Below, in pieces: positions 1,580 to 23,494 of a stretch of 64,000 bases of DNA. The stretch's first letter is position 1, and each line of letters starts with the position of its first letter. A program made the position numbers and the translations under genes. This DNA is from Salinibacterium sp. TMP30. GTDB taxonomy: Bacteria > Actinomycetota > Actinomycetes > Actinomycetales > Microbacteriaceae. The notes beneath the pieces are model-generated. The model saw only the letters and a list, made by a program, of their open reading frames with translations. It was not told the origin of the DNA and ran no database searches. The DNA lies in NCBI RefSeq assembly GCF_038397785.1, contig NZ_CP151642.1, positions 1,736,001 to 1,800,000 of the forward strand. The letters run 5' to 3'.

Positions 1580-1585
1580 TACGCT
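1580..1585 (+). promoter_or_regulatory. Candidate -10 box of a leaderless ald transcript
   Basis: TACGCT lies 7 nt before the ald ATG, the spacing expected if transcription starts at the A of the start codon. No Shine-Dalgarno sequence precedes the ATG. The upstream 1510-1560 part of the divergent intergenic region is AT-rich and could hold a regulator site. No convincing -35 was seen. Confidence 0.45.
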
Positions 1586-1592
1586 CTGGACT

Positions 1593-2747: not shown

Positions 2748-5700
2748 CTACGAGGGTAGTCGCACTCGGTCTGCGCCGCCGTCGATCAGCCTCCAGTAGT
2801 GCCCGGAGCCTGTGCTGAGCGGCGGCGGCAGTTCGCGCGTTCGCGCGACTTGGCGATAGTCGCTGAGGGTGCAGCCGTCTAGGAGAACTGTGGCATGTGC
2901 TCTTAGCAGTGCGAGAGCCCCCCAGCGGGACTGCCATTCATCAATCGATCCAACGAGGGCAACCGGTCGATCTGAGTCGGCGATGAGGAGTTCGCGCTCG
3001 GTTCCCTGTGCCCCTTCGAGGGTGCGCACGTGCCAGCCTGCAGTGGTAAGCGCGGCGACCGTCGCCCCCAGCCGGCTACTTCCAATCACAAGATTCTCGG
3101 CGGACGGCAGTGTCTCTGCAGCAGCGGGAACCGGATCGGGTGGATAGGTCCCACTCAGCGCTATCTGCACTCGTGCACCTTTCCATAGCCCACCCCCGAC
3201 TGGCAGCGCGGAGGCATAGTCAGCGGATACTCCCCCCGAGAGCACGAAATCTTGTCTGCTGCCGAATCGAAGTCTCAGCGTGTTCGGAATCAGCTGGGCT
3301 ACTGATTGCAGGGCCGGAGTAATGCGCTGAGCACTCGCGACTACCCAAATGTGGTGCGCCGGGCCTTCGCGCAGCAGTCGCGCGAGCCTGTCGAGCGCTG
3401 CAACACGGTAGTCATCGTCGAAGCGCGATATTGCCACATCGAGATCGTCAATTGCCAGCAGTGTTGGAAGGTTGTGGAGCTGCGGGAACTCGGGGCCATC
3501 GAGCCGAGCATGCAATTCTGCGAGAGTGTCCCAGAATCCGGCGGGTTCGAGGCCGCCCACTACGACCCGGAAGCCGGCCGCCGAGCCGCTGACGGGCTTC
3601 CTGGCGGCCTCGAGGTGAACTTTCGGGACAGGGTGCGCCGACGCTGGTGCAGAGATCGCAGCAGCGAATGTTGCGATCGCTACACTCTTTCCGCTGCCGG
3701 GCGCGCCCAGCATGAGCACGCTCCCCTCACTGGTCGGAGTCCACTCTGCTATACCGTGCCTTTGTTCGTGGGGCAGATCCGTGAGTCCGAAGGCCACCAC
3801 TGCACCGCGCTCTGGATTCGAATTGCATGCAGCTCTGAGCGCATTCGACTCAGCTGAAGCACTCGATGCGCTTGGTACCGTGCTCCTTCGAAGCGTATCG
3901 TGAAGCTCCGTGACAACGGCGAGCGGGATAGTGTCGGCGAGAGGTTCGCACCAGGGTCGTCGCGGGCTCGATGGGGTCGGCCATCGCCGTGCGACCGTGA
4001 TGACGTCACGAGGTGTGGCGAGAGCGAACTGCACCAGCTCGGCGGAAGACGAGCCATGAGCAACCCACGCTCGACCTTTTGCGCCCGCAGTTAGCTCGGC
4101 GGCGCGATCGCTACCGATTACCGCAGAGCTGTCGGCGCCATTGTTGACGCGCAATGAGATTCGGAGGTCAGCATTTGCGAGAAGTGCGTCGCGCACAACA
4201 CCTGAGGGGCGCTGAGTGCACAGGATGAGGTGCACACCGAGAGATCGTCCGCGAGCGGCAATGTCGCTAAATAGCGCGTGAAGCTGGGGGTAGTCGCCCA
4301 TCATTGCGGCAAACTCATCGACCACGATTACGAGGCGCGGAAGGGACCCGAGTTCAGCGATGTCTCTCACGCCTGCTTGCGCAAGGGCGCGTTCGCGGTG
4401 CTGAAGCTCTGCGCGGAGGCTTGCAAACGCCCGGCTGGCTGCAGTCTCATCGAGGTCGGTGATGATCCCGACCGTGTGTGGCAGTTCGGCAAGGTGAGCG
4501 AACGCGGAACCCCCCTTGAAATCTACAAGGAGAAACGTGACGTCGACCGGGGACGTTTCAGCCGCCATCGCAAGGACCCACGAGATCAATAGCTCGCTTT
4601 TGCCACTTCCCGTTGTTCCGCCGACGATCGCGTGCGGTCCGTGCTCTACAAGATCGAGCACGGTTCGGCCCTTCGCGCCCACTGCTGGTCGGCTGCACAA
4701 CGAGCGCGCGCGTTTCGACGGTGAATCGGCGACCGCACCGAGTTGCTCGAGAAGCTGGCGGAACTCGACCACATCAGGAACTGCCCCATCACTGATCGCT
4801 AGCCCGTCCCGCGCGGCGATCTCGTGCGCCGCGAGCGCCCAGACCAGAGCCTGTTCTCGGCCGAGAAATGATGGATCAAATTCGCGTCGCTGATGCTTGT
4901 CAGGGTGACTGACGACGGCAATCATGTCACCGCTGACACGAATGACGATTCGATGCCCGCTAGGCACTTCTCGTTCGTTCGAAACAACACTGATCGATGC
5001 GCTCGGTGCATCCGTGCCCAACTCACCCCAGTGCACGCTAGCGCGCTCATGAGACCAACTTTCCGCATCCGCTCCACCATCAGAACGCAAAACCCGATGA
5101 GGCAGACAAGAACCCCATCGTTCAGCGCTCAACCTGCCGCGGAACCTCACCCAACTGGTCGTGGGGGAAAGAGTGCGAGCCAGTTGAATCGCCAACGCCC
5201 GCGCCAACGACAGCGCGATTGGCTCATTGCCAAAAATTGCGATCCCCAGTCGAGCATTAACCGCGATCGGAGCACCCTCCAGTCTGGCCGCATGATCGGC
5301 AAGCCGCTGATAGTGCTCATCAGTTGATGCGTCTACACGGTCATGAGCCCCGGTTCGCTCAAGCGAAAGACTACTGCGAACGCTGCCGTAGCCGAGGTGC
5401 ACGGGTAGCACGTCGCGGGGCTCTCTCATCCACCGGGCCGAATCAGTAAGCACGTCTCGCACCAAGGAAATTGCTGGCGGCGTGCGTTCTGCGAGGTCGC
5501 AACTCTCTCGACGATGATGGGCATCAATCGCTGACTGCGTCGTCGAAACGTCCCGCGAGAAACGCGCTTGCTCTGCTCGCAACTTCTTGCGTGCCGTCAC
5601 GCGCGAATCAATATAACTTCCTGTCGCCGCCAGCGGCCCCAAGGCAGCAAAGATCAGCGCGAACGTCGAACCTGTAATCAACCAGATCGCCAATGACGCG

Positions 5701-5804
5701 ACGATCGGCACTGTTGCTGCCACGACCGGAAATCGAAATGGCGGGGCTGGCTGCGGCGCAGACGGCAAAGTGATTCGGGGATCATTGGCGCGGGATTCGG
5801 TCAC
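2748..5804 (-). CDS. FtsK/SpoIIIE-family ATPase, EccC/EssC-like (type VII secretion-type)
   Basis: A 1018-residue membrane ATPase. Two transmembrane helices lie at about residues 24-62, followed by a linker and two P-loop ATPase domains. The first has Walker A GTTGSGKS at 396-403, the LLVDFKGGSAF motif, and Walker B VIVVDE with Glu497. The second has GAPGSGKS at 700-707 and a less typical LLAIDD at about 782-787. This layout matches EccC/EssC motors rather than the DNA translocase FtsK, since there is no gamma domain; EccC proteins usually carry three ATPase domains, so this one is short. GTG 5804 is chosen because GGTGGAG precedes it by 7-8 nt; the frame is open to 5843. It is the last gene of the kinase/FHA cluster. 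No WXG100 substrate or other ESX component is in the window. Confidence 0.85.
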   Translation of the reverse strand: MTESRANDPRITLPSAPQPAPPFRFPVVAATVPIVASLAIWLITGSTFALIFAALGPLAATGSYIDSRVTARKKLRAEQARFSRDVSTTQSAIDAHHRRESCDLAERTPPAISLVRDVLTDSARWMREPRDVLPVHLGYGSVRSSLSLERTGAHDRVDASTDEHYQRLADHAARLEGAPIAVNARLGIAIFGNEPIALSLARALAIQLARTLSPTTSWVRFRGRLSAERWGSCLPHRVLRSDGGADAESWSHERASVHWGELGTDAPSASISVVSNEREVPSGHRIVIRVSGDMIAVVSHPDKHQRREFDPSFLGREQALVWALAAHEIAARDGLAISDGAVPDVVEFRQLLEQLGAVADSPSKRARSLCSRPAVGAKGRTVLDLVEHGPHAIVGGTTGSGKSELLISWVLAMAAETSPVDVTFLLVDFKGGSAFAHLAELPHTVGIITDLDETAASRAFASLRAELQHRERALAQAGVRDIAELGSLPRLVIVVDEFAAMMGDYPQLHALFSDIAARGRSLGVHLILCTQRPSGVVRDALLANADLRISLRVNNGADSSAVIGSDRAAELTAGAKGRAWVAHGSSSAELVQFALATPRDVITVARRWPTPSSPRRPWCEPLADTIPLAVVTELHDTLRRSTVPSASSASAESNALRAACNSNPERGAVVAFGLTDLPHEQRHGIAEWTPTSEGSVLMLGAPGSGKSVAIATFAAAISAPASAHPVPKVHLEAARKPVSGSAAGFRVVVGGLEPAGFWDTLAELHARLDGPEFPQLHNLPTLLAIDDLDVAISRFDDDYRVAALDRLARLLREGPAHHIWVVASAQRITPALQSVAQLIPNTLRLRFGSRQDFVLSGGVSADYASALPVGGGLWKGARVQIALSGTYPPDPVPAAAETLPSAENLVIGSSRLGATVAALTTAGWHVRTLEGAQGTERELLIADSDRPVALVGSIDEWQSRWGALALLRAHATVLLDGCTLSDYRQVARTRELPPPLSTGSGHYWRLIDGGADRVRLPS

Positions 5805-5905
5805 ATGCCTACTCCACCAGCACATGGCATCCTGCCACGGCACTCACCCACAGCCGTGGAGAGACTGCCCTCGCTGATTGCTGTGAGGGAGGCTTCGTCG
5901 GAAAG

Positions 5906-8368
5906 CTAACTCACAATGAAGAACTGTTCGCCAATCTCAACACGCGTGCCCCGCATTACCCGGTAGCGTTTGCCTGGCTCGCAACGCTTTGGCTCTCCTC
6001 CAGGCTCTCGAACAACACTTCCATTGCCTGAATACCGGTCGCTGATCCAGAATGCGCCCGCCATCTGACCAAACTCGAGATGAGTTTTTGATACAGATTT
6101 ACTCGGATCAGTAATCGGGACCACGATGTCGAACTTCTCGGAGGGTTCCGGTGTCGGATTGCGCCCAACAAGCCCGGTGCCCGTCACGATCACACTGTCG
6201 CCGGTGCTGAACTGCAGCACAAATCGCGTTCCCGAGATACTGCGTTCCACGATCCGGGTGTCTTCTACGTCTTCCTCATCTGACGCAACCGACGCGAGCG
6301 GAGTAGGCGGCGCAATCGGCAACTCAACGCGGTGATGAAACATCGGTGGTGGCGCAAGAACCGAGCTGCCAAGAGCCGCTGCAGCCCCATCGTTAGCTGC
6401 GGAACTCTGAACACCTTCAGGCTCAGACTGCCCCTCACCATCACCGGGGTGGGGAACCGCACTGAGAGGCTCAAAGCTAGTCTTAACGGAATCAACCTTC
6501 ACAACCGCGTCGTCGACGGCACTCGGAATTCGCGCGCCAGCCTCATAGTCGTCGTGTGTGACGTTCTCATCGCGTGAGAGCTCATCAGCGAGTGGCGCCA
6601 GCGCGGAGTCTGGCTCGAGCTCAGCATTGTGCGCCTGAGGAGGTTCTTCATGGGGCGCAGATTCTTCAGCATGCGCCACTTCTTCCGGCAACACAGCGAC
6701 TCCTGCCGGCTCGTCAAATACTTCTTGGGTCTGCTGACTGTTGGACTCTGGCCCTGACTCTAACTTTGGCCCTGATTTTAACTCTGGCCCTGACTCCAAC
6801 TTTGGCTCTGCCGTTTCCGTGACCGTGCTCGCACGCACGGTAGGTGTTCCCCACGGAAACGGGTCGAGCGCAGGCGCGCTAGTCGATCGGGATGTGGGCC
6901 CAACTCCGTGCTTAACAAATCCGCAAGAACCACAGAAAATATCGGACTCCGACAGAGACTCACCACACTGGGCGCACACAGCCTCGGACGAAGCCAATCT
7001 GGCCGACGCCGACTGCATTGCGGTGTGATCATTCGCACGAGTGCCCTCGACAGCGGGACCGACATTCGAATCGGGACCACCATTGCTTCCCGTCATTGCG
7101 TCGCGCGGCTGCGTTTCGAAAGCCTCGGATATCCGTGGTGCCGTGCCACTAATTGATGCCACATCAGACGCCGAGTCAACAGACTCCCTCGGTGGCGCTG
7201 GCTGCTCGCTCACACGCTCAGAGGCCACTGGAGCGAATCCAGATGCTCGTAGTCGGTCTGCTGTTGTGAAGACTGGCTCATCACCGAGTGGGCGCACGGG
7301 CCTGACCGGAGAACGATTCTGAGCCGGCGCAACAGCTTCCGGGCGCCCAACCTTGCTCAAATCGGGCTCAAATGGAGAACGTGGCAATGGAGAAGGCTCA
7401 ACGAGCGGTTCAGGCTCAAAGAGAGCCTCAGGCTCAGCCTCAGGCATAACTTCAAACTCTGCGCTGTCGAGCGAAGCTACGTCCAGGTTGTGCGCTTCGT
7501 CTTCATCCGTTGTTTGCGATTCGTCGTTACTAGTATCACTGTTATCGTCGCGGCTGCCAGCGGAAATCTCGACCGAGTCATCCATGGTGATGGCGGTGTG
7601 CTCGTCGGCGGCGAGTTCACCGCCGTGACGCTCTACAGAAACGTCAGTGCCTCTCGTGTCCGACGCGGAATCACCCTCAACTGACAGGGAAAGATCCGAC
7701 TCATCTGCCGGTGTGGGCCACGCGATCTCCTGCGGATTTGGCGCAGGCAGGTCGCGCCAGCGTGTTTCCGGCGCCGGGGCAGCATTCGAAACTCCACCAG
7801 AATCCGCAGCTGCTACCGCATCAGAGCTACCAGCGAGACTGTCAACGGCCCGAGGCTCCAGCGCGGCAGCGTCCGCTGGCTCCGCGGAATGAGCAGACCC
7901 TTCGGTCTCGCCGGAAATCTGCGCAAGAGCCAACGGATCGCCGAGCTGCAGAGCAGGGATAGCTGCCGCGTGTGCGTGTCCAGCGTTATGCCGACCTTGT
8001 GCATCTGACCGTGACGTTTCGTTCACTTCGTCACGCACAGCAACTCTGGCCGAGCTCGAATCCTCGTCCGCAATTACGGCAATATCATCCTGGACGTGAA
8101 GTGCAGTTGTTGTCGCGCGAACGGTATCACCGGATGAGGCTGCCGCCGAGCTGACTGCGTCAGTCGTTTCGTTCGTGAGATGGCGTGGTGCGGTTAGCGA
8201 TTCCACCGCCTGAGCCTTCTTCGCGGCTCGTTTCGACCGCGCAGATTTCGACCGTTTGGGCGCTGCATCAGCACTCCGGCGGGCGCGGCGGGACATGGCG
8301 GGCCGCCCACACTCGGCGCAGTAAACAGCATCGGCGGGCAGTTGCGTCGCGCAAAAAGAACAAATCAC
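5906..8368 (-). CDS. Zinc-ribbon and FHA domain protein with long acidic linker
   Basis: An 820-residue protein with three recognisable parts. There is an N-terminal zinc ribbon (Cys3, Cys6, Cys17, Cys20) and a second zinc ribbon at 465-482 (CAQC...CGSC). A C-terminal FHA domain covers roughly 725-815 (GLVGRNP, SVSKTHLEFG, GNGSV). FHA domains bind phosphothreonine, so this is a likely reader of the cluster's kinase. The linkers are acidic and rich in Ser, Ala, Glu and Pro and are presumably disordered. Start GTG 8368 places the zinc ribbon at the N-terminus and follows GAGG by 8 nt; an open frame continues to 8413. It lies 10 nt after the TgpA-like gene and 101 nt before the EccC-like gene, so it is probably co-transcribed. 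Confidence 0.85.
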   Translation of the reverse strand: MICSFCATQLPADAVYCAECGRPAMSRRARRSADAAPKRSKSARSKRAAKKAQAVESLTAPRHLTNETTDAVSSAAASSGDTVRATTTALHVQDDIAVIADEDSSSARVAVRDEVNETSRSDAQGRHNAGHAHAAAIPALQLGDPLALAQISGETEGSAHSAEPADAAALEPRAVDSLAGSSDAVAAADSGGVSNAAPAPETRWRDLPAPNPQEIAWPTPADESDLSLSVEGDSASDTRGTDVSVERHGGELAADEHTAITMDDSVEISAGSRDDNSDTSNDESQTTDEDEAHNLDVASLDSAEFEVMPEAEPEALFEPEPLVEPSPLPRSPFEPDLSKVGRPEAVAPAQNRSPVRPVRPLGDEPVFTTADRLRASGFAPVASERVSEQPAPPRESVDSASDVASISGTAPRISEAFETQPRDAMTGSNGGPDSNVGPAVEGTRANDHTAMQSASARLASSEAVCAQCGESLSESDIFCGSCGFVKHGVGPTSRSTSAPALDPFPWGTPTVRASTVTETAEPKLESGPELKSGPKLESGPESNSQQTQEVFDEPAGVAVLPEEVAHAEESAPHEEPPQAHNAELEPDSALAPLADELSRDENVTHDDYEAGARIPSAVDDAVVKVDSVKTSFEPLSAVPHPGDGEGQSEPEGVQSSAANDGAAAALGSSVLAPPPMFHHRVELPIAPPTPLASVASDEEDVEDTRIVERSISGTRFVLQFSTGDSVIVTGTGLVGRNPTPEPSEKFDIVVPITDPSKSVSKTHLEFGQMAGAFWISDRYSGNGSVVREPGGEPKRCEPGKRYRVMRGTRVEIGEQFFIVS
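6743..6805 (-). repeat. 18-bp tandem repeat encoding a hexapeptide
   Basis: About three and a half copies of an 18-bp unit (GGCCCTGACTCTAACTTT type on the plus strand) encode L-E/K-S-G-P-E/K repeats near residues 523-543 of the zinc-ribbon/FHA protein. The unit is a multiple of three, so copy-number change would keep the frame. Confidence 0.75.
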
Positions 8369-8378
8369 GGGTAGTCCT

Positions 8379-10670
8379 CTATCGCTTAAACAGACTTGTG
8401 ACACTATAACCACCGAGCGATCGCAGCGATATTTTGGTCCTGAACCGCGCCCAGCGCGACAGTCCAGTGTGGAGCTGATTTTCGAGATCGGTAACGTTCG
8501 TCCAGAACGCCTCTACCTCGTCTGACTTCGGATCAGCTCCGGAGAAAATTGCGCGGTCCGCATGCACTGCGAGATCATGTGCCGCGGGTTCTTGTACAAC
8601 CGCAGCAACCTCCGTTCGGGTTCCTGACAGTGGCGGCGAGTAGCCGTGGTCAAGTAGCGAGTCCTCAAATTCTTGCCAACCGCCGCTGATCTGCTCCACG
8701 GTGGAGTTGGCACGCCGACGCAGTAGTCGACGTCGCACTTTCGCGGCAATAATTAACAAGAACGGCGCGGCAAGCACGAGAATCACGAGCAGGGTCCAGC
8801 CGACGGTTCGCAGAGCAGCAAGAATCGCTTGGAGTACGGGGTCGAGACCAGGCTGAAGTGCTTGCTCGCTGTCCGGGTTTGACTGTCGATTGAGCGTGTC
8901 TGACTCGATCTCGGGCGGTTGCACGATGGTTTGTGGGCGCGCAACCTGTGCGGTGTCGTTCGGATCCTCATCCGGAATTTCCCGCAGCGGCGGATTCGGG
9001 TCAAGAGTCACCCACCCGTACTGTGCCGTATTGACTTCAATCCAGGCAGTGACATCACTGCCACGAATTTGTTGGTCTGACGTCACAAATCCGAGAACAA
9101 CGCGGCTGGGAAAACCGAGCTCGTTCGCCATAATGGATGCTGCTACGGCGTATTGCTCTCCGTCGCCAATCATCCGTGGCTCGGTAAAGAGCTCAGCAAT
9201 ACGATCCGCTGAGTGACCGGATCTGCTTGGCGGCTCATCTACCCCCACACCATGGCTGATGTAGCCGTCGGCGGCGAGTCCTCTGAGCATTGCGGCAAGA
9301 CGCTCCCCCGGTTCCGTCACACCGCGCACATACTGGTCCAGTTTTTCGGTGAGCTCATCAGGGGATACACCGATGGGAGGAACTTCGGCTGTTCCTGGCA
9401 TGAGCGACGAAATTTCGTCGGCACCAGGTTGAACAGGAAGCACACCCTCGAAGGTGTAGCTGTCGCCGCTTTGTAGTCGTTCCGTCACAGCAGCCGTGCC
9501 CGATACTTTGTTGTAGTAGAACGAGTCGTTGAGTTCTGATGCTCGGGATCCCTCGAAGTCCACTTCTTCAAACAGCCCAACTGTTGGTACCCACACACCC
9601 GTGTAGTTCGCGATCGTGATACTCATCGCGACGGGGCTGCCATCAACGTCTGACTGGTCGAAACGAGACGGAACACGAGCGAATGATCCGGATGCGTTAG
9701 TAACACGACCGCTGCCTACCGCGTAGACGACACCGTCGTAACTGTCGAGAGTTGCAAGCCTGACGCTCGTTCCTAGCGGAACACCGGAAACCTCGAACAG
9801 TACGGAGTTCGCCGTTGCTGGTTGCCAGTAGCGCCGAAACCCGGAGAGGGGACTCACATAATCTCGCGGATCAAACGGCTCAACTATGGAAGTGCGCAGA
9901 ACAGAGCGGTCGTTCTTCGGCGGAAGTGCGTTTGCCATACTGACAGCCGCGCTTGCAGCAATCGAGAGAATAATGATCGCGCTAATGACCGTGCGGGCTC
10001 CAGCAAACCCAAATTCACGCTTGCGTCGAGCCATGCCCGGCGTGTCGGTTGCCGCCTCGAGGGCGTTGACTGTGTCACGGCGGCGGCGCCAGCGAAGCCA
10101 TACCAGCGTCAGCGCAATAGCAACCAGAAGGGTGATCGCAAGGGTCACCGGCCGATCAGGGTAGGTAGGGCCAAACGCTACTGCGACGAGGAACACGATA
10201 ACCGGGGGAATCACCGCGAGCTCCGCTGACTTTGTGCGGAAAGCAATGCTCAGGGAGGCGACCGTGGCACCTAGTACGAGCACTAAGGCGGGCACGAGGA
10301 GAGCCTGATAGCTGCCAACAGGTAAGGAAATGGTGAGAAGTTGCTTCCATCCCAACGCGACGCCAAAAACGAGATCGAGAAGTCCAGCCAGTGTGGGGAG
10401 GACCGAATACTGGGTTTCTGAAGGAACGGCAATCGGCACTCCGATCACGAGAAAGGCAATGAACGTGGCGAGAGTCGTGGTCACGAACGACCACTTTCGC
10501 CACAGCGCAACAAGAGCCACCACAGTTCCGGCAATCACGCTCACCGTAACGAGAGTGATCAGCGCCGGGCTTCGATAGATCGGCCACAGTGCTGCGGATG
10601 CGAGCGAGATTGCGAGCCAGAGCAGTGCCGTGGTGACAACCACGAATGTGCGGGAGACGGTGCGAGTCAT
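8379..10670 (-). CDS. TgpA-like membrane protein with degenerate transglutaminase domain
   Basis: A 763-residue integral membrane protein. The first ~230 residues hold six or so hydrophobic helices, then an extracytoplasmic region with a transglutaminase-core fold (about 480-565), a helix near 655-685, and a cytoplasmic tail. It fits the DUF3488/TgpA family that accompanies MoxR and DUF58 genes. The catalytic Cys position is Gly504 (GDGEQYAV), the His position is Thr541 (VTAWIEV), and only the Asp (Asp557, TLDPN) remains. It is therefore probably not an active protease or transglutaminase. Its ATG overlaps the DUF58 stop (ATGA), indicating translational coupling. Confidence 0.85.
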   Translation of the reverse strand: MTRTVSRTFVVVTTALLWLAISLASAALWPIYRSPALITLVTVSVIAGTVVALVALWRKWSFVTTTLATFIAFLVIGVPIAVPSETQYSVLPTLAGLLDLVFGVALGWKQLLTISLPVGSYQALLVPALVLVLGATVASLSIAFRTKSAELAVIPPVIVFLVAVAFGPTYPDRPVTLAITLLVAIALTLVWLRWRRRRDTVNALEAATDTPGMARRKREFGFAGARTVISAIIILSIAASAAVSMANALPPKNDRSVLRTSIVEPFDPRDYVSPLSGFRRYWQPATANSVLFEVSGVPLGTSVRLATLDSYDGVVYAVGSGRVTNASGSFARVPSRFDQSDVDGSPVAMSITIANYTGVWVPTVGLFEEVDFEGSRASELNDSFYYNKVSGTAAVTERLQSGDSYTFEGVLPVQPGADEISSLMPGTAEVPPIGVSPDELTEKLDQYVRGVTEPGERLAAMLRGLAADGYISHGVGVDEPPSRSGHSADRIAELFTEPRMIGDGEQYAVAASIMANELGFPSRVVLGFVTSDQQIRGSDVTAWIEVNTAQYGWVTLDPNPPLREIPDEDPNDTAQVARPQTIVQPPEIESDTLNRQSNPDSEQALQPGLDPVLQAILAALRTVGWTLLVILVLAAPFLLIIAAKVRRRLLRRRANSTVEQISGGWQEFEDSLLDHGYSPPLSGTRTEVAAVVQEPAAHDLAVHADRAIFSGADPKSDEVEAFWTNVTDLENQLHTGLSRWARFRTKISLRSLGGYSVTSLFKR

Positions 10671-13068: not shown

Positions 13069-13077
13069 AGCGAACCT

Positions 13078-16000
13078 CTAGTCATAATCGAATCCGTTGT
13101 ACGTTCTGTCGTAAGTTTGCCCGCCGTTGGCGATCACACGTACAACGAGGGTCGGGGTGTCCGTAAGGGCGGCGTCGGCATGACAGCTACCGCCCGGCGT
13201 ACTGGCGTCAGCTATTTGCCACGGGCCAAGAGCCGTCGCGCCTCCACAGCGGTAGTTCACTGCCTCGTAGGTTCCTGTGGGCCAGTCGAGCCACTCAAAG
13301 GTTCCGCTCTGGTTGAGGAGGTCGCCGTCTGTAGTAAACGTCAGGGTGCCTACGGATGGGTTCACGGGAACTCCCAGCGCGAACGGTGCTGACCAGCTGG
13401 GTTGGCAGATGGGGCCGGAACCATAGCTTCGGCAGGCACGCACCTCGACCGAAATGTACTTTCCGTATTGTTGGCCGCCATCTGCGGTCAGAAACGAGCC
13501 AAGCGCAACAGGACCGAAAATTGTTCCGGGAACACTGCCACCACTCAACCGGTAGTAGAGGGTGTAGTCGCTGGTGAGCGGTTCACTGCCCATCATCCCG
13601 CCGTTGACCGTGAAGTCGAATCGGTTGCCATTCGGCACGGGTCCGGCGGTGTTGAGCGCGGTGACGACAGCTGGCGGGGTGTGTGCGATTACCGTTGGCG
13701 AAGCGGTGCACCCTTGACCATTGTTAGCGAAGACGAGCATCGTGTAGGTGCGGTTCGGCGACAAGCCCGAGAATGTCGTCGATGTTCCGCTTCCCACCGC
13801 TGATAGCGCCGCACCATGCCTTGTGATCGAACCGTTGGCGGCGCAGGTAGGAGCGGTGCCGGTGTATGCGGCGGCGGTGTACTCGGTGACTGGTCGGCCA
13901 TTCTCGTTGAATGCTCCCACCCACGTAAGCGCGACGGTGCTGTCGTTGACAACACTCGCTACCGGTGCGGTGAGCGCGATCGGCGGGCCAGCAGGAATCG
14001 CGCTGCGGGGCTCGCTGGTATTCCAGACCGAAAGCGCGGTGTATGCAGCGTTGCGGGGGCTCACCGTGTAGGCAACCGCGACGCCGTTGTCGAGCACCCA
14101 CGTGGATGGGGTTTCCCAGGTGCAGGTGGAGCTATCGCACTGAGTCAGCCCAAGCGAGGTCTCAAAACCGCCAACGACAACGCGATAGCGGTCTACGGGC
14201 GAACCACCGGTTGGCGTCGGCACTGCGTTCCAGGTGAGTCGCAGTCCGTGGTCGAGGGGGGCTGCGCTGAGCGCGGTCGGCGCAACCGGGATGATGTCGG
14301 ACCAGACCGCATCGGCCAACGTTACGGCGTCAGACTCCCCGATTGCGTTGATCGCAACGACTGTCACTTTGACTGCGTTGCTTGGCCCGTTTCCCGTCGT
14401 TGCGATTGCACATGTGGTGCCTGCGCACTCGGTCGTATTCACGACGACAGCGCCCGCTTTTGTTGTTACCCGGTACGAGCTAATTGCAGAGTTGTTCGCC
14501 GGCCCTGCGTTCCAGCGCATCATGATGGTTTTGTCTCCAAAGCCGCTCGGGCCGAGGTTCGACACCGGGTCGGGTCGATCCTGAACGGAAACGACGACGG
14601 TTCCCCAGACGTAACGACTCGCGTCATTGGTTGCATCCGCGACGCGATACTGAAGATTCACGTCACCCGGCACTGCCCCGGCCGAGACTGTGACGGTCAG
14701 CGTGCTGTTGTCATTACTGGGAACGATGGAGAGTCCAGCGGGGATTGTGCCTCCACCGAGTCCACGAATGTCGACTACGCGAAGCGGTGCACCCGGGAAT
14801 GGGTTAGTCGAGGCATCGTTGGCGAGAACATCGACGACGGTTGTCTGCCCGCGCTTCGCGATCGCGAGATCCGCAGCGGGGCTTGCAAGTGGTCGCGTGG
14901 AGGGAACCACGTTTAGTTCGATTCGGCCTGATTTGCCTTCGGAGAGATCATCACGCACCCCGAGTGAGAGTGAAGTTCGGGTTCCCTTCACCGCGTTGGT
15001 GTTGGCCCGAAGAGTCAACGCCGTGCCATCGAGCGAGTACGTGAAACCTTCTGGCAGCGGGCTGAGCACTGAGTACGCGAGCTCATCGAGGTCATCAGGG
15101 TACGGGTAGTTGGTCAGCTTGAGGAGATCGATCTCTTTCTCCTGGCCGGGCTCAAAGTCGATCACCGCACCGCCGAACACGGGTGCTTGGTTGTCACGCG
15201 GAAGCACATCGATCGACAGCACAAGAATTGCCGTGCGCCCGTCGGGGTCTGTCGCCGACGTACCATCTGTTACTTCAAACGAAATGGATGCCGGCCCGAA
15301 ATACTTTTCGGCAGACGTGTAAACCAACGTGTCTTCGTCACGCACGAGGTCAGCACCATCACTGTGCGTAGCCAGTACAGTGCTTGAGTCCGTTAGGCGA
15401 ACCGGCTTATCTCCGACAGCGATGATGTAGTCGTTGAGGTCGATAACAAGAGTGCTCTCGCTATTGACAGTGAGTTTCTGCGCACGGCGATCGATCTGCG
15501 GCAATGCATCGTTGTAGCCGGGCACTCTGATAAAGGCGTAGCTGAATGCAGTGGGGTCGACCGGGTTCGTTACACGGAACGGGATGATCTGCCCCACATC
15601 CTCGACCGACACTTCGATCTTTTTGTCTGCGGTCACACGCGCAACGTCTCCGAACCCGGTATAGATCGCCAAGGAGAGCGTGCGCGGGTCACCGTCGGCG
15701 AAGAACACGTCGGCAAGAACATCGACGGTTACTCGGTTGCGATCGAGTACGTCTGAGAGAGTCAGCACGCTGTCCGTCACCACCGGGTACGCAGGCTTGG
15801 CGTCAGGGTCTACGGTTACGCGGATAAAGTTCTGGCTCGAGCCACCGGTTTCGTTTTCGATCACATAGATGATTCCGTAATCACCGGGGACGGCTGGCGG
15901 CGTCACGTTGACCACATCGCCATCGATTTCTGCGAGGGTAGTCGGATCGTTGGGTTCAACGGAAACAACGGACAGTGGGCTTCCGTCAGGGTCAGAGTCA

Positions 16001-19000
16001 TTGGCAAGCACCTGCACTGACACCGTGATTCCCGGCTTCACGGTCACTTCGTCGATGATCGCAACCGGGTTTCGAGCACCATCAATTCGAGGGCTGATCC
16101 CAATGTTGATTTCACCGTTCGCTCGCGCACCCAGAGAATCAATCAGCGTGTAGCTAAAGGTGTCTGTTCCGGCCGAGTACTCTCCAGCCTGATACACGAA
16201 GGTGTTGGAGTCGACGTCAACGACAGCGCCCTTGCCAGGGTTGGTCGCTTGACCAAGAAGTTGTACCGAGTCACCATCCGGGTCTGCTGACGTCAAGGGG
16301 ATTTGCACCCGCACGGTGTCGCCGGCAAGCACACGAGCGGTCACTGTCGGCGGTACCGGTGGGTTGTTACTTGCAGGATCGAGCTCGCGCACCGCAATGC
16401 GCACGATCGCGGTCGCTGACTGACCATCGGGACCTGCGACTTGATATGCCGCGGTGAAGTTACCCGTGCGGTCAGGCGCGAGATAGCGCAGCACCTCGCC
16501 CGAGGCAAACAATAGTCCCGAGTCTTCTGGCAGATCCTGTGCCAGCTGGGGAACGAGCGTCAGTTCAAGACCATCGGGGTGCTCGTCGTTCTGAAGCACG
16601 CGGATGTCGACAGCTTGCCCGACGCGGACCGTCACCGAGTCATCGTTCGCGATCGGCGCCTGCAGCCGGGACGGAGCCGGAATTTCGACAACAGTGATCA
16701 CGCCGACCGCATCCGCAAGTCCATTGCTGATTCGGTAGTTGAAGCTCACAGGACCGTCATCGAGCGGAGCTTCGAGGCTCACTCGAACGAGTCGCTGCTC
16801 CAAGATTTCGGCACGAACTCCGGACCCTTGGCGCAAGTTCATGATTTCAGTAACGAGCAGAACGCCGCCGGCCGGATCGACGTCAGTGCCGGCGACATCG
16901 ATTCGTTCGTTCTGAAGTGTCTGCACAAAGATCGTCTTGGGCACCGTGATCGGCGACGTGTTTGCATCTGGCGGCGCAACGACATCAATGCGCACGATTG
17001 CCGTGTGGGTCAGGTTGCCATCCGTTACGACGTATTCGAGGTTGTGGCTGCGAATCTCGTCACTCGTGAATCGGAATGTTCCTGTCTCATAGCTCGGCAA
17101 GACCTGTGCGCCGGTCTTGGCGGGAACGCTATTGAGGCGGATGTTTCCGTTGCCGCCGCGAACATGGTCCAGTGGCGAGACAGTGACTTCCTTGCCCGCA
17201 TAGGCGAGCACAACGAAGGGATCAGCCTCGATCGGCACCTCCCCGGGAGGTTTGACCGAAACGGAGATGCTTCCCGAGCTTTCGCTCTCACCATCGGAGA
17301 CCACGAGGGTGACAATCTTGAGCTCGCCACCGGCACCGGAATCCGAGAAGACGACGTCGCCGCCTGGCTTGTAGCTCACGGCATCTGGTGCCGCGACCGA
17401 TGCGTTCGTCAAGTAGAAAGGGTCGCCGTCTGGGTCAACCCAGTCACCGAGAATCTGATCGGTGACGCGGCCACTCGTTTGCACAGTAAATTTTGTGGCG
17501 CGCATTTGCTGCGGTGGTGAGTTCTCTGACTCGGCACGAATCTCAACGACGACGTTCGCCGTTGCCGTACCTCCGCGGCCATCGCTCACCGTGTAGCCGA
17601 AGGTGACCTGACCACTCGCTCCCGGCTCGAGAGTGATTTGGATCTGCTGACGCTCATTGATGCGGTCGATTCGGCCGAAACTGGCATTGATTGTCGGCAA
17701 GGCTTCGACAACAAGAACGTCGCCGTTCGCGTCGTAGTCATTCAAGAGCACCGGCAGCACCGTTGAGCGGCCTGAACGTGCCCCGAACACATCGTCGACG
17801 GCGACCGGCGGTTGTTGCACTTTGTCGACCTCTGGTTCAAGATCGAGAAGATTCTGTTCGACTTCTGGTTTTTCTTCGTCAGTGGTGATGAGTTGGTTCC
17901 AGTTGTCAATAAGTTCACCGTCACCCTGCACCGCCCACGTGCGGCCAGTGAGCCGGTCATTGAGCACAGCTCGCGTGCCATTCACAGAATACGAAAGCTG
18001 CGCATTGGCTTCCATTTCGGCCAATCGAAGCATCACCCCATCACCAGCATCGGCCGGACACCGTCGCCAGTTCTCACCGCTCGTCCATGCGGCAAACTCG
18101 CAATCACCAATTCGCAGCGGAGGTGCTGCCAGGCCGGATTGGCCGGTCGCGAGCCCAACCGCCGCGGCACCGTTTAGGGGAACGCTCAGCACGCCAGCGC
18201 TATATCCGATCAGTACGCGCTCTCCCCCGGCAGAGGGGATCTGAAGCACTGGATTGTTGCCGCCATCGATGAGGCCGGTGAGGTCAACAGTTCTTCCCTC
18301 TATATGCAGCAGTTGAGCATCCGCGTCGAGGATTGCCCACTGGCCGGCAACCGAGGTGATGCTGAGTTCAGCGGTGGTGTCGAGATCGAGCGTGACGCTG
18401 GACTCAGCGGTGTCCGAGATTGCGGCGTTCACTCGGAACAACTGACTAGTTGATGGGGAGAACGCGAACAACAGCCCGTTTTCGTCGACGCTCACAATCG
18501 CGTCGGCACCCAGGCTCAGCGATGCAGCCGACTCAGCATCGAAGTTGAGGAAATCGTCGTAGGAGCGGATCCACACCTCGCCAGTGCCGTGCTCGAGCAC
18601 AACAACATTGTCGGCGGCGAAGTAGATCTCTGGTTGGTTCGGTGGCAGCGCGACACTTTCGGCGACCTCCGAAAGCGCAGGATCGACAACGTCGATCGCG
18701 CTTTCAGCCCGATCGAAGAGCAAGACGTTTTCGCCGTGCTGGACAACTTCAAGGTCAGCACTCTGGGCGTTCACCACGGAATTTATTTCGAGGACCTCAG
18801 TGCTCGCACGACCGATCGCCTGCTGCTGGTTGTTGGCCACCCACACTGCGCCATCGGCAAGGTCGACCCGCTGCGCGGTGTACCCCGTCGACACAACCGC
18901 GGCCGTCGCTATCATTGCGACGATCGCGGAGATACTCACCACGCCAACAACAGTTGATCGTCGCGCGCCGCGCCATCCCTTAGCCACAGCCACAACCACA

Positions 19001-19005
19001 ACCAC
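13078..19005 (-). CDS. Giant membrane-anchored surface protein: propeller-like, Ig/cadherin-like and FN3 repeats
   Basis: A 1975-residue protein with one N-terminal transmembrane helix at about residues 17-42 and everything after it predicted outside the cell. Residues ~50-390 read as repeated beta-strand blades, perhaps a propeller. About 400-1540 hold tandem Ig/cadherin-like modules, recognisable by recurring PVAVDD...VLLNDYDANGD-type motifs such as VLQNDEHPDG, VLANDSDPDG and VLANDAS. The last ~430 residues are fibronectin type III-like modules rich in Trp, Tyr and Pro. It likely binds a surface or polymer ligand. The start is uncertain: several in-frame GTGs lie between 19005 and 18978 in a GTTGTG repeat, and no Shine-Dalgarno is clear. 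It begins 18 nt after the kinase stop and fits the FN3 protein of PFNA-type clusters. Confidence 0.88.
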   Translation of the reverse strand: MVVVVAVAKGWRGARRSTVVGVVSISAIVAMIATAAVVSTGYTAQRVDLADGAVWVANNQQQAIGRASTEVLEINSVVNAQSADLEVVQHGENVLLFDRAESAIDVVDPALSEVAESVALPPNQPEIYFAADNVVVLEHGTGEVWIRSYDDFLNFDAESAASLSLGADAIVSVDENGLLFAFSPSTSQLFRVNAAISDTAESSVTLDLDTTAELSITSVAGQWAILDADAQLLHIEGRTVDLTGLIDGGNNPVLQIPSAGGERVLIGYSAGVLSVPLNGAAAVGLATGQSGLAAPPLRIGDCEFAAWTSGENWRRCPADAGDGVMLRLAEMEANAQLSYSVNGTRAVLNDRLTGRTWAVQGDGELIDNWNQLITTDEEKPEVEQNLLDLEPEVDKVQQPPVAVDDVFGARSGRSTVLPVLLNDYDANGDVLVVEALPTINASFGRIDRINERQQIQITLEPGASGQVTFGYTVSDGRGGTATANVVVEIRAESENSPPQQMRATKFTVQTSGRVTDQILGDWVDPDGDPFYLTNASVAAPDAVSYKPGGDVVFSDSGAGGELKIVTLVVSDGESESSGSISVSVKPPGEVPIEADPFVVLAYAGKEVTVSPLDHVRGGNGNIRLNSVPAKTGAQVLPSYETGTFRFTSDEIRSHNLEYVVTDGNLTHTAIVRIDVVAPPDANTSPITVPKTIFVQTLQNERIDVAGTDVDPAGGVLLVTEIMNLRQGSGVRAEILEQRLVRVSLEAPLDDGPVSFNYRISNGLADAVGVITVVEIPAPSRLQAPIANDDSVTVRVGQAVDIRVLQNDEHPDGLELTLVPQLAQDLPEDSGLLFASGEVLRYLAPDRTGNFTAAYQVAGPDGQSATAIVRIAVRELDPASNNPPVPPTVTARVLAGDTVRVQIPLTSADPDGDSVQLLGQATNPGKGAVVDVDSNTFVYQAGEYSAGTDTFSYTLIDSLGARANGEINIGISPRIDGARNPVAIIDEVTVKPGITVSVQVLANDSDPDGSPLSVVSVEPNDPTTLAEIDGDVVNVTPPAVPGDYGIIYVIENETGGSSQNFIRVTVDPDAKPAYPVVTDSVLTLSDVLDRNRVTVDVLADVFFADGDPRTLSLAIYTGFGDVARVTADKKIEVSVEDVGQIIPFRVTNPVDPTAFSYAFIRVPGYNDALPQIDRRAQKLTVNSESTLVIDLNDYIIAVGDKPVRLTDSSTVLATHSDGADLVRDEDTLVYTSAEKYFGPASISFEVTDGTSATDPDGRTAILVLSIDVLPRDNQAPVFGGAVIDFEPGQEKEIDLLKLTNYPYPDDLDELAYSVLSPLPEGFTYSLDGTALTLRANTNAVKGTRTSLSLGVRDDLSEGKSGRIELNVVPSTRPLASPAADLAIAKRGQTTVVDVLANDASTNPFPGAPLRVVDIRGLGGGTIPAGLSIVPSNDNSTLTVTVSAGAVPGDVNLQYRVADATNDASRYVWGTVVVSVQDRPDPVSNLGPSGFGDKTIMMRWNAGPANNSAISSYRVTTKAGAVVVNTTECAGTTCAIATTGNGPSNAVKVTVVAINAIGESDAVTLADAVWSDIIPVAPTALSAAPLDHGLRLTWNAVPTPTGGSPVDRYRVVVGGFETSLGLTQCDSSTCTWETPSTWVLDNGVAVAYTVSPRNAAYTALSVWNTSEPRSAIPAGPPIALTAPVASVVNDSTVALTWVGAFNENGRPVTEYTAAAYTGTAPTCAANGSITRHGAALSAVGSGTSTTFSGLSPNRTYTMLVFANNGQGCTASPTVIAHTPPAVVTALNTAGPVPNGNRFDFTVNGGMMGSEPLTSDYTLYYRLSGGSVPGTIFGPVALGSFLTADGGQQYGKYISVEVRACRSYGSGPICQPSWSAPFALGVPVNPSVGTLTFTTDGDLLNQSGTFEWLDWPTGTYEAVNYRCGGATALGPWQIADASTPGGSCHADAALTDTPTLVVRVIANGGQTYDRTYNGFDYD

Positions 19006-19023
19006 AACCAGAGTTAGCTGTCG

Positions 19024-20451
19024 TCATGGCAACACCGCACACTTCTGAGCGCTCGACGGCCCTGATTTGCCGTCGCGGGTCACTGTGACGGAAATGCACA
19101 CGTTCTCGCCTGATTCAGCGTCGACAACGAAACTGGGCTCACGCTGCTGCACTGGCGCTTGCCCGTCGGTCGTCGTGATTTGGTAGGAGTCGCCCGCTTC
19201 AATTCCCGGGTCCGCCCACGAAAACTCAACCACATCGCCAGACACTGTGGCACTAATGTCGCTGACCGTTGGGATATCGCTCGACCGCGACTGCAGCTGA
19301 GTGAACGTCACGGTCGCACCCAGAACCACGATAAGTGCGGCAACAACTATGCCCGCCCAGGCGACGGCTTGCATACCGCTGCCCCGAGGAATCGAATTCG
19401 AACCCGTCTTTCTGCGTGACATCTTGTCGTCGACAGCCTCGCTATCGAATGCACCAAAGCTCTCGTCGATCGCAGCCGGACGTCGACGTTTGCGGCGCTG
19501 TGCGGAAGACACGGGCAGTGCTTGGCCCGGCCGCACCCGCGTGCGATCTTCAAGTTCAGCAACTGTAGCAAGCGCCCAGTCATCCATCGCCACTTCGATG
19601 GGGGTCTGTGACAGCCCAAGTTCGGACTCAACAGACTGGAGTTCGTGCACCAGCTCTAAGACGCTGCCTTGACGAGCTTCGGGCTTGCGCGACATCGCAC
19701 GATTCAGCGCGCGCTCTAGGCTTTCGGGCACATCACTCCGGCCCGTAGGCCGAGGCTTTGCACGGTTAATGCGCGAAATGAGATCCGTGGACTTGTTTGA
19801 CTCCCCCGGCACCTCAAACGGTGACCGGCCGGCGAGAAGCGAATAGACTGTCGCAGCGTATGACCACAGCTCAGATTCAATCGTGCCCGCTGTCTCATCC
19901 ATCAAGACTTCGGGCGCTGACCACGGGATTGACATGCCGACCGCTTCGAGATTCTCGGACTCGCTGAGCGTCGCCGCAATACCAAAATCAGAAAGTACCG
20001 GATGCCCATAAGCGGTCGTCAAGATGTTCGACGGCTTGATATCACGGTGCAGCACGCCAGCGCGATGGGCAGTCTCAATTGCACTGCCAATCTTGATCGC
20101 AATTCGCAGCACCTCGGGAACAGGCAGTCGCTCCGCACGATACCGCTGACTCAGTGTTGACGAGCACAGTTCCATCACCAAGTAGGGCCGTCCATCAGAC
20201 GAAACGCTTGCCTGATACACCGTAAGGATCGATGGATGAGCACTAAGCTGCGCCATCAGATTCGCCTCAGCCTGAAACATCTGGCGAACCTGATCGTTGA
20301 CGACCTCGCTCAACATGACCTTGACAGCAACCTGTCGTCGCGGCATATTTTGTTCGTAGAGGAATACGTCAGCGAAGCCGCCAGAACCGAGAACGTGAAC
20401 GTGCGAAAAACCCGGGAGCGCAGGGGGATCTGAGGGCAGTCTTCGAGCCAC
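19024..20451 (-). CDS. Membrane Ser/Thr protein kinase (PknB-type) with extracellular FN3-like domain
   Basis: A 475-residue Hanks-type kinase. The glycine loop is at 21-26 (LGSGGF), the ATP lysine is Lys44 (VAVK), catalytic HRDIKPSN is at 135-142 and DFG at 155-157. A Lys/Arg-rich juxtamembrane stretch leads to a transmembrane helix at ~357-380, then a ~90-residue outer domain with an FN3-like pattern and two Cys. It probably senses an envelope signal and phosphorylates the FHA proteins of the cluster. The start is GTG 20451. A 119-nt gap with two hairpins and a TAGAAT box separates it from the phosphatase gene, so it may have its own promoter. Confidence 0.93.
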   Translation of the reverse strand: MARRLPSDPPALPGFSHVHVLGSGGFADVFLYEQNMPRRQVAVKVMLSEVVNDQVRQMFQAEANLMAQLSAHPSILTVYQASVSSDGRPYLVMELCSSTLSQRYRAERLPVPEVLRIAIKIGSAIETAHRAGVLHRDIKPSNILTTAYGHPVLSDFGIAATLSESENLEAVGMSIPWSAPEVLMDETAGTIESELWSYAATVYSLLAGRSPFEVPGESNKSTDLISRINRAKPRPTGRSDVPESLERALNRAMSRKPEARQGSVLELVHELQSVESELGLSQTPIEVAMDDWALATVAELEDRTRVRPGQALPVSSAQRRKRRRPAAIDESFGAFDSEAVDDKMSRRKTGSNSIPRGSGMQAVAWAGIVVAALIVVLGATVTFTQLQSRSSDIPTVSDISATVSGDVVEFSWADPGIEAGDSYQITTTDGQAPVQQREPSFVVDAESGENVCISVTVTRDGKSGPSSAQKCAVLP

Positions 20452-20483
20452 AGCACACCCCTAACATGTCGACGAGTTCGACC

Positions 20484-20489
20484 ATTCTA
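20484..20489 (-). promoter_or_regulatory. Candidate internal -10 box before the kinase gene
   Basis: TAGAAT on the minus strand lies 32 nt before the kinase GTG. It sits downstream of two hairpins that could end or weaken transcription from the phosphatase gene. No good -35 was found at 16-18 nt. Confidence 0.3.
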
Positions 20490-20516
20490 AGTGAGCAATT
20501 AGCCCAATATCCCGAT

Positions 20517-20568
20517 TCTGCCCCTTGTTTGGGGTCAGAAGGTCAGTCCCCAGTATGGAGGACCGACC
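20517..20568 (-). terminator. Two tandem hairpins between phosphatase and kinase genes
   Basis: Just after the phosphatase stop, GGTCAGTCC/GGACCGACC (20541-20549 with 20560-20568, one mismatch) is followed by TCTGCCCC/GGGG-T-CAGA (20517-20524 with 20531-20539, one bulge). Neither has a U-run, so they may be attenuators, processing sites or mRNA stabilisers rather than full terminators. Confidence 0.4.
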
Positions 20569-20570
20569 GC

Positions 20571-21365
20571 TTAGTCCACTGTAGGTACTTCTAACACATC
20601 CACGATGATTGCCGTGATGTTGTCGCGACCGCCACTATCGAGCGCAGACTCGAGCAAGCTCGATATCGTCTCTTCGGTCGGGCGACGTTCGGCAAGTTGC
20701 CTCGAGAGTTCATCCTCCGGAACCTCGCGTGTGAGCCCATCGGAGCAGATCAACAGACGCTGGCCGCGGCGGATTGGCACCATCCAAAAATCTGGTGACG
20801 GTGCCGCATTGAATCCGATGGCTCGCGTGATGATGTTTGCATCAGGATGATCGTCTGCCTCGTCACGGGAAAGGACTCCCGCATCCACCATGTCTTGAAC
20901 GACAGAGTGGTCGCGGGTGATCTGGGTGAGGGTATCGTCTTCGAACGAATAGACCCGGCTGTCTCCGACGTTGAATACCGCGAAGCATGCTGATTCGTGG
21001 TGTTCTGTGACTACGGCACCGGTGACAGTAGTTCCGACTCCCAATTCGCTGTCTTGAGCAATCAGGCCGATATAGTCTGTCGCTCTCTCTAGCGCGCGTT
21101 CAACCGCTCGGGCGGGTAAGAAGTCTCCCGTGATGGCATCGTCAAGTCGTTCGACAACGGCGGCGCTTGCAAGATCACCCGCAGAGTGGCCGCCCATACC
21201 GTCTGCAACGGCAAACATCGGCGATCGAGCGACATAGCTGTCCTCATTTGCGGTGCGCCGATAGCCGGTATGCGTGCCCGCTGCCCACGCAAGCGTGAAC
21301 TTCTGATCTTTTCGCCCTGGCAGTGCGATGGTGTGGCCCGAGTTGTTGCCGCCGATTTCGGTCAC
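20571..21365 (-). CDS. PP2C-family Ser/Thr protein phosphatase
   Basis: A 264-residue cytoplasmic metal-dependent phosphatase, the likely counterpart of the adjacent kinase. Metal-binding and family motifs are present: NED at 40-42, ADGMGGHSAGD around 54-64, VGDSRVY, CSDGLTREV and GGRDNITAI. GTG 21365 is chosen because GGAAGG lies 7 nt upstream and the conserved N-terminus follows; the frame is open to 21434. It starts 19 nt after the stop of the small FHA gene. Confidence 0.94.
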   Translation of the reverse strand: MTEIGGNNSGHTIALPGRKDQKFTLAWAAGTHTGYRRTANEDSYVARSPMFAVADGMGGHSAGDLASAAVVERLDDAITGDFLPARAVERALERATDYIGLIAQDSELGVGTTVTGAVVTEHHESACFAVFNVGDSRVYSFEDDTLTQITRDHSVVQDMVDAGVLSRDEADDHPDANIITRAIGFNAAPSPDFWMVPIRRGQRLLICSDGLTREVPEDELSRQLAERRPTEETISSLLESALDSGGRDNITAIIVDVLEVPTVD

Positions 21366-21384
21366 GGCTACCTTCCTGCGCGAT

Positions 21385-22008
21385 TTACTCCGGACGCTGC
21401 CGTGGCAGAATCCGAATAATGTTTCCGTCTCCAATATCCACTAGCGTGCCTGCAGATACGACTACCGACTCACCCTGCCGAAGTTTTCGCGCAGCATTGC
21501 CCGGTACTTGAACGGCAGAGCCATTTGTAGATCGGAGATCTGTCACGATAACCGAAGAACCCAGTTGCCGCACTTCAACATGGGTTTCAGACACTTCACG
21601 GTTCGGAGATCTGACCGCAATGAGTCTTGGCCCTACGCCCCGAACGATACGAGGAGGACGGGGATCGCGCCCGAAGACACAGGGGTGATCTAAATTGTGC
21701 GCGCCAGCGGCACCATCCAATTGCACACGGTAGTAGAGCGCTGATGCTTCGAGAGAATTCTCAGTGGGTGCGCGCGAGGCGCTCACCTGCTGGGCCGTGA
21801 CCTGCGAAGGCATGCGGGGAGAAAGCTGGACGGAGGTCTGGTCGGGAACCGCCCCAAGCGCGCCACCACTGGCGGATCCGACAACGGGCCGCAGCGCGAC
21901 GGGCCGTTTCCGGGACGCGAGAATGATTGTGTCATCAAGGTCGGGCTCAGTCGGCATCGCTATGGGGCGTTCGCCCGCGGTGATCGTGTCGTCGAAGTCT
22001 TGCCTCAC
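21385..22008 (-). CDS. Small FHA domain protein with N-terminal DDTI motifs
   Basis: A 207-residue cytoplasmic protein. The C-terminal ~95 residues form an FHA domain (CVFGRDP, REVSETHVEV, STNGSAV) that binds phosphothreonine. The N-terminal half is disordered and carries two similar acidic threonine motifs, DFDDTI (Thr8) and DLDDTI (Thr27), possible kinase sites. It is the first gene of the minus-strand kinase/phosphatase cluster. The GTG start at 22008 lies 6 nt after a TAAACT box, so the message is probably leaderless. Confidence 0.9.
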   Translation of the reverse strand: MRQDFDDTITAGERPIAMPTEPDLDDTIILASRKRPVALRPVVGSASGGALGAVPDQTSVQLSPRMPSQVTAQQVSASRAPTENSLEASALYYRVQLDGAAGAHNLDHPCVFGRDPRPPRIVRGVGPRLIAVRSPNREVSETHVEVRQLGSSVIVTDLRSTNGSAVQVPGNAARKLRQGESVVVSAGTLVDIGDGNIIRILPRQRPE

Positions 22009-23488: not shown

Positions 23489-23494
23489 TCCACC

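Follow-up and report, generated by a model that had tools for sequence, protein, structure and literature searches.

What does a motor of the type VII secretion family do at the end of a row of signalling and envelope genes? The question is raised by the window, i.e., the whole stretch of 64,000 nucleotides of Salinibacterium sp. TMP30 (Microbacteriaceae) that was analysed, in which nine minus-strand open reading frames (ORFs) occupy positions 2748-22008, the last of them encoding a short EccC/EssC-like ATPase. The conserved join of a PFNA-type core (named after an operon of bifidobacteria) to this short motor is new, as is the motor's co-occurrence with one remote WXG100 gene; membrane-half remnants of the ATPase and a dead transglutaminase are also new. 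An even chance is given here to the reading that these genes form a slimmed-down apparatus of the T7SSd type (a published type VII secretion system, T7SS, variant), in which the short ATPase would be docked to the kinase cluster, would take a WXG100 protein as its client and would be gated by phosphorylation.

An earlier reading of the window from its letters alone (the sequence-only reading) had described nine minus-strand genes of these families, and ORF coordinates together with domain matches bore this out, each ORF lying where it had been placed. The gene order observed is FHA-PP2C-kinase-Ig/FN3-MoxR-DUF58-TgpA-FHA-ATPase, with small overlaps or short gaps between genes, the widest being 119 bp before the kinase gene. 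By position in the window (aa, amino acids; TM, transmembrane), the genes are:

2748..5843, minus strand: short EccC/EssC-like ATPase, 1031 aa (domain matches, motifs, alignment of relatives)
5906..8413, minus strand: zinc-ribbon FHA protein with a long linker region (domain matches)
8379..10670, minus strand: TgpA-like multi-TM protein, pseudo-transglutaminase (Transglut_core 47 bits; catalytic columns)
10667..12100, minus strand: DUF58 protein (domain match)
12097..13068, minus strand: MoxR AAA+ ATPase (AAA_3, 208 bits)
13078..19005, minus strand: 1975-aa surface protein with Big_9/cadherin-like repeats and fn3 (domain matches)
19024..20451, minus strand: membrane Ser/Thr kinase (Pkinase 139 bits; HRDIKPSN, DFG and APE motifs)
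20571..21434, minus strand: PP2C phosphatase, Stp1/IreP-like (206 bits vs. a cut-off of 230)
21385..22008, minus strand: FHA protein, first gene of the cluster (domain match)

The naming of the ATPase as EccC/EssC-like holds, with scores of 250 bits for EssC, 217 bits for EccCa and 155 bits for EccCb, although all of these are below the equivalog cut-offs (778, 509 and 347 bits, respectively). A DNA translocase related to FtsK would agree with the match to the Pfam domain FtsK_SpoIIIE (115 bits); it is considered highly improbable, as the NCBIfam models give 250 bits for EssC vs. 61 bits for FtsK and the genome holds a separate 885-aa FtsK-like frame. ATPase-1 of the protein contains the motifs GTTGSGKSE and VVDEF, and its Walker A and B motifs (G..G.GKSE, DE) are invariant in 21 of 21 relatives, together with several arginines. 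Across the same relatives ATPase-2 is variable, often with the Walker A motif missing, and the C-terminus is a short conserved tail and no full ATPase-3. We read the layout as N-terminal membrane segment(s), a DUF-like region, a catalytic ATPase-1, a variable ATPase-2 and a degenerate ATPase-3. The closest solved relatives are 4nh0 (EccC, from T. curvata) and YukB (9qks); the C-terminal 374 aa gave no PDB sequence match at E<=1, and no FHA domain match was found in the ATPase. In the ATPase tree, the 22 short ATPases of the family form one clade (100/99), with the long ATPases as its sister group (97/96). Outside both clades fall all 'single' ATPases of other families except that at locus L054, as well as the ATPase of L026, which had initially been counted as long.

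The linkage of this ATPase to the cluster was followed in 249 genomes of the family, of which 230 gave matches to the ATPase query and 207 to the Ig/FN3 query. Adjacency was counted among the matches listed, i.e., the best 146 genomes per query, 106 genomes being listed for both. Regarding these, the Ig/FN3 and ATPase genes were within 15 kb of each other in 81 of the 106 genomes (34 genera), including five of five genomes of the own genus; in all 81 pairs the Ig/FN3 gene was upstream on the same strand, at a gap of 4.6-9.5 kb. The remaining genomes had the two genes on different contigs (18) or far apart on one contig (7). Of 589 named ATPase loci 80 were kept, and 73 with at least 3 kb upstream were usable; the MoxR plus TgpA/DUF58 core was upstream of the ATPase in 45 of these 73, and PP2C or FHA genes were within 2.5 kb of it in 65. 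The same split is seen between g2 and g3, with the core in 5/5 loci of g2 and with PP2C but no core in 6/6 fetched loci of g3. All nine genes occur in order even in a 1.62-Mb genome (L258). Given the counts for adjacency and core loci and the g2/g3 split, the linkage holds in a large part of the family without being universal. The claim that the ATPase belongs with the cluster is thus sustained, most fully in the own genus; in much of the family it stands beside the cluster, whereas in another part the ATPase is found with PP2C/FHA genes or is lost.

These counts bear on two other explanations. The kinase-FN3-MoxR-DUF58-TgpA set could be an envelope sensor that works on its own, in line with the picture of PFNA in bifidobacteria, with the ATPase a mere chromosomal neighbour. 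The core does occur without the ATPase (e.g., in G225, G356 and further loci) and the ATPase away from the core, but adjacency across 34 genera, a PP2C gene that is still within 2.5 kb in 22 of the 28 usable named loci without the core, and a membrane-half ORF that remains behind the FHA gene in genus g108 (see below) make this improbable. An anti-phage defence module of a kinase and an FtsK/HerA-like ATPase, similar to MADS, was suggested by PADLOC matches, with 180 bits for mad6 (kinase), 100 bits for SspH and 92 bits for mad8. The score of a PknB/Stk1-type kinase model is almost as high (172 bits), the EssC model is far higher for the ATPase (250 bits), and the gene order is shared by many genera of the family, the 1.62-Mb genome included, so that a defence role is very hard to credit. 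Outside the family, the locus L056 (G094, another family) has a 1464-aa ATPase contiguous with a kinase-FHA-PP2C-FHA-TgpA cluster and a 92-aa WXG-containing ORF, and is apparently another joining of the two gene sets.

The genome of strain TMP30 (single contig, 2,685,429 bases, 99.97% complete) encodes one EccC-like ATPase; a second match, at 34% over the ATPase domain only, is in our reading probably FtsK. The search for EccB (PF05108) gave no match, but none of 14 control genomes exceeded the cut-off either, so that this search lacks a positive control. The best match to EccD/YukD (PF08817) reached 13.4 bits, contained an internal stop and was not over the cut-off, which was exceeded in 41 of 198 genomes of the order. 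A full ESX locus elsewhere that would explain the ATPase was not found, there being no second EccC-like ATPase, EccB or EccD (EccE and MycP were not searched). No T7SSb-type EssC with N-terminal FHA domains and no EsaB/YukD were found; EssA, EssB and EsaA were not searched. One WXG100 protein was above the cut-off (64 bits vs. 27.3) and is encoded outside the window, 339 kb from the ATPase gene (C1:2080660-2080944, equal to L005:9660-9950; narrower limits 2,080,669-2,080,920). On the same strand, a sensor histidine kinase ORF ends 38 bp before the start of this orphan gene, and groEL comes next on the opposite strand; the product of the orphan gene has the W-x-G hinge and the C-terminal YxxxD/E of the WXG100 family. 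A second match at 2.66 Mb remained below the cut-off (14.8 bits). The statement of the sequence-only reading that ESX partners are lacking is therefore right for EccB and EccD, as far as these were found, but not for WXG100, one of which, with a YxxxE tail, is present elsewhere and tracks the ATPase.

This tracking was assessed with a profile built from 20 WXG100 sequences, in all of which W-x-G and YxxxE are invariant; the fetched loci of 18 of these sequences contain groEL or the sensor kinase. Thirty WXG100 loci were fetched from the order, and in 18 of them, which span several families, the short locus also includes groEL and/or the sensor kinase. With up to 20 candidates scored per genome, an ortholog (E<=1e-20) was present in 186 of the 249 family genomes. 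When the ATPases were sorted into short and long by ORF length and coverage, the ortholog was observed in 173 of 174 short-ATPase genomes and in 0 of 29 long-only genomes (20 genera), which corresponds to a Fisher p of 2.6e-34 that ignores relatedness. Three 'short' assignments rest on fragments (G207, G224, G376), and moving them to the no-ATPase class gives 170/171. Outside this comparison are four ambiguous genomes (G206 and G352 with, G216 and G423 without WXG100), 19 in which no ATPase was recognisable (WXG100 in 11) and 23 that were not profiled (WXG100 in none). The Ig/FN3 gene (E<=1e-100) is kept in 19 of the 29 long-only genomes, none of which has the WXG100 ortholog, so that the distribution of WXG100 is not simply that of the kinase cluster. 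G227 has both the WXG100 ortholog and an ATPase frame of 1026 aa.

On a tree of FtsK that covers the own genome and 60 of the 80 that were profiled, the two traits, ATPase and WXG100, change 9 and 8 times. Contrasts were computed on the careful tree with four long-branch rows omitted. Without the no-ATPase class, strong branches yielded four independent contrasts (on average 3 in the same direction, 0 opposite, 1 undecided) and all branches seven (6 same, 0 opposite, 1 tie, the latter involving a 75%-complete genome); with that class, all branches yielded nine (6 same, 0 opposite, 3 ties). At the level of the order (n=198), 11 genomes were without an ATPase match, 14 without WXG100 and 7 without both; as the resulting ATPase count of 187/198 may include FtsK matches, this table alone is only suggestive of a link. 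EccD/YukD was seen in 46 of these genomes (41 over the cut-off) vs. WXG100 in 184 (179 over the cut-off), so WXG100 without EccD is common in the order. An ESX control within the family is provided by G125, where an EccD-type match lies about 2 kb from a 1310-aa EccC-like ORF.

Some related loci were observed alongside. Four loci of the family with EccC-like ATPases of about 1500 aa (L049, L050, L052, L053) also contain WXG100-like helical ORFs of about 100-150 aa (clusters c12 and c25) and conserved ORFs of about 400-460 and 200-220 aa; long-ATPase loci of this kind are possibly a second type VII variant. In small genomes of family f4 (L330-L334), mini EccC-like ATPases of 622-699 aa match the ATPase-1/2 part of the profile only, and WXG100 is present in the genome. 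In Bifidobacterium longum, a WXG100 gene is reported as up 31-fold in stationary phase, with groEL/groES expression rising too (PMC9415070, available sections).

Twenty-four core clusters without the short ATPase were read for remnants of it. In three genomes of one genus, g108 (G232, G304, G359), the ORF directly after the FHA gene matches only the membrane/DUF half (model positions 4-211, 42-56 bits; ORF lengths of 285 and 289 aa for two of the three). G282 retains a 40-residue ATPase stretch (23 bits), and a remnant in G343 is doubtful (32 bits with high bias, in a stop-to-stop search only and absent in ORF searches). None of these genomes has a WXG100 ortholog at E<=1e-20, weaker matches near 1e-13 being present in G282 and G359; G304 and G359 were not among the genomes profiled for ATPase class. 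Eleven of the 24 loci lack the second FHA gene as well. On the simplest reading, the membrane half would act together with the FHA/core side, and the partner of the ATPase half would be WXG100.

Several points weigh against a WXG100-exporting motor. In Staphylococcus aureus, EssC without D3 does not secrete EsxA (PMC9436818, available sections), and D3 of the window ATPase appears to be only degenerate. WXG100 is retained in 11 of the 19 genomes without a recognisable ATPase, eight of them from the tiny-genome genera g83, g86 and g152, which form one clade on the FtsK tree, and three being drafts, one of them 97% complete. Short-ATPase genomes are few in that tree, because it holds only 60 of the 80 profiled genomes and the own one. 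With the no-ATPase class included, four contrasts on strong branches give on average 1.7 in the same direction, 0 opposite and 2.3 undecided, and the tree-corrected co-occurrence, though consistent, is not significant on strong branches, where its support is thin. No ATPase remnant was seen in 19-20 of the 24 core loci without the short ATPase, and in other families 27 loci of single EccC-like ATPases had no cluster genes alongside in single-sequence searches at >20 bits. The ATPase may have ceased to be an exporter and now serve the kinase cluster in regulation or envelope assembly, the WXG100 correlation then reflecting shared loss in a few lineages. The degenerate ATPase-3, the frequent lack of a Walker A motif in ATPase-2, headless versions kept inside the cluster, the WXG100 genes without an ATPase and the few independent contrasts on supported branches would all agree with this. 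It is nevertheless held to be unlikely, if well within serious consideration, as the Walker A/B motifs and several arginines of ATPase-1 are invariant, WXG100 is distributed 173/174 vs. 0/29, and it does not follow the Ig/FN3 gene.

Regarding the remaining parts of the cluster, the zinc-ribbon FHA protein keeps R, S, H and N in 65/65 aligned sequences, residues which we take to be those that bind phosphothreonine. The TgpA-like protein had been labelled a transglutaminase, and this label fails: in an alignment of the window protein with 49 named loci (ORFs outside 540-1310 aa excluded), the Cys column has 0/50 Cys, the His column 0/50 His and the Asp column 50/50 Asp, the catalytic columns being assigned on our assumption from the transglutaminase family. 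Transglutaminase chemistry is thus unlikely. The sequence DxSxS, presumably the MIDAS motif, was not found in the DUF58 protein of the window, and 11 relatives printed alongside are similar at the corresponding stretch. Because motif residues are kept in the kinase and FHA readers and the Cys and His of the TgpA-like protein are lost, the former appear to be functional, in contrast to the enzyme site of the surface assembly. The kinase has a single hydrophobic segment (residues 363-381), as has the 1975-aa Ig/FN3 protein at its N-terminus; a C-terminal TM segment as in TsdI was not seen in the latter in a scan for hydrophobic segments. PP2C may in truth start further downstream than at the listed TTG. 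Two DDTI motifs, possible sites for FHA ligands, lie close to the N-terminus of the first FHA protein (window 21900-22008). A shared phospho-motif of the DDT[RI] type before the second FHA domain was rejected as not general, because the strict pattern occurs in 7/65 sequences (1.6 expected from shuffles) and a looser one in 20/65. The genes flanking the cluster (window 215-2708 and 22052-25513) encode a solute-binding protein, alanine dehydrogenase, aminobutyraldehyde dehydrogenase, an Lrp-type regulator and a class-III aminotransferase, which looks like amino acid/polyamine catabolism.

In the T7SSd-type reading, the cluster would be a vertically inherited envelope complex of Microbacteriaceae. 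The membrane kinase, PP2C and the FHA readers would control a surface assembly of MoxR, DUF58, pseudo-TgpA and Ig/FN3 proteins, and the short ATPase would dock to this assembly via the FHA protein next to it and the membrane half at its own N-terminus. The client of the ATPase would be the orphan WXG100 encoded beside groEL, the two acting as a secretion apparatus that has neither EccB/D nor a ubiquitin-like part, with the phosphorylation state deciding whether the motor is engaged. A bolder version, advanced tentatively and at less than an even chance, pictures a near-minimal type VII system with a truncated motor that lacks a canonical ATPase-3, a WXG100 from the distant sensor kinase/groEL locus, and neither EccB/D nor a ubiquitin-like protein; FHA readers of the kinase and phosphatase would clamp the membrane half of the motor, and the pseudo-TgpA, DUF58 and Ig/FN3 proteins would serve as its envelope conduit. 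If true, the system would show how little a type VII motor needs and would offer environmental bacteria for the study of its control by phosphorylation. It may also correct the view that streamlined genomes have no type VII parts, a streamlined marine member of the Microbacteriaceae (1,760,810 bp) being said to have no type VII system (PMC6106888, available sections).

Regarding published systems, T7SSc-j were defined by Garrett, Higginson and Palmer in 2024 (PMC11217815; statements on this paper refer to the sections available), and the window system is a T7SSd-like variant of a published kind. The kind is not new, as T7SSd and T7SSe with kinase, FHA, phosphatase (T7SSe) and an Ig-like giant protein are already described there. 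In that paper T7SSd, from Actinomycetota, comprises WXG100, an ATPase with FHA domains, a kinase with a TM segment, a small TM protein and an Ig-like protein of 1654 aa. It has no ubiquitin-like part, and control by phosphorylation is raised by the authors. T7SSd (TsdA-TsdC-TsdD-TsdH-TsdI) is the closest published kind, sharing with the window the EssC-like ATPase, the TM Ser/Thr kinase and the giant Ig-like surface protein, and with its genome a WXG100 protein, no ubiquitin-like protein having been found. Unlike in T7SSd, the window ATPase has neither FHA domains at its N-terminus nor a canonical ATPase-3, WXG100 is encoded outside the cluster, the giant protein has the N-terminal segment only, and two separate FHA proteins, PP2C, MoxR, DUF58 and pseudo-TgpA are added. 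T7SSe and T7SSc, from Bacillota, resemble the window in kinase plus PPM phosphatase, T7SSe also in a separate FHA protein and T7SSc in an ATPase without FHA; both differ by a ubiquitin-like protein and an in-cluster WXG100, and T7SSc also by a vWA protein and an EspG-like chaperone. The words MoxR, DUF58, transglutaminase and orphan are absent from the main text of PMC11217815, as far as available. ESX/T7SSa and T7SSb share the ATPase and WXG100 families with the window, but EccB and EccD/YukD were not found and the window ATPase is shorter; it is not assigned to T7SSa, being below the equivalog level of EccC (EccCa 217/509 bits, EccCb 155/347 bits).

The likeness to the bifidobacterial PFNA cluster, pointed out in the sequence-only reading, was confirmed by the shared order kinase-FN3-AAA-DUF58-transglutaminase; some of the bifidobacterial operons also have PP2C and FHA genes (PMC8430577, PMC6803598; available sections). 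Transglutaminase activity is only presumed in bifidobacteria (PMC8430577), and 'FtsK' and 'secretion' are absent from the available main texts of both papers. Unlike PFNA, the window has a dead transglutaminase site, PP2C and one FHA gene in front, and the EccC-like ATPase behind. Judged by titles and the openings of abstracts, no report combining a PFNA-type core with an EccC-like ATPase was found in the open-access literature. The window joins the PFNA operon with the T7SSd-type variants, which had been published separately, and a specific remote partner, the WXG100 protein, is proposed for the motor.

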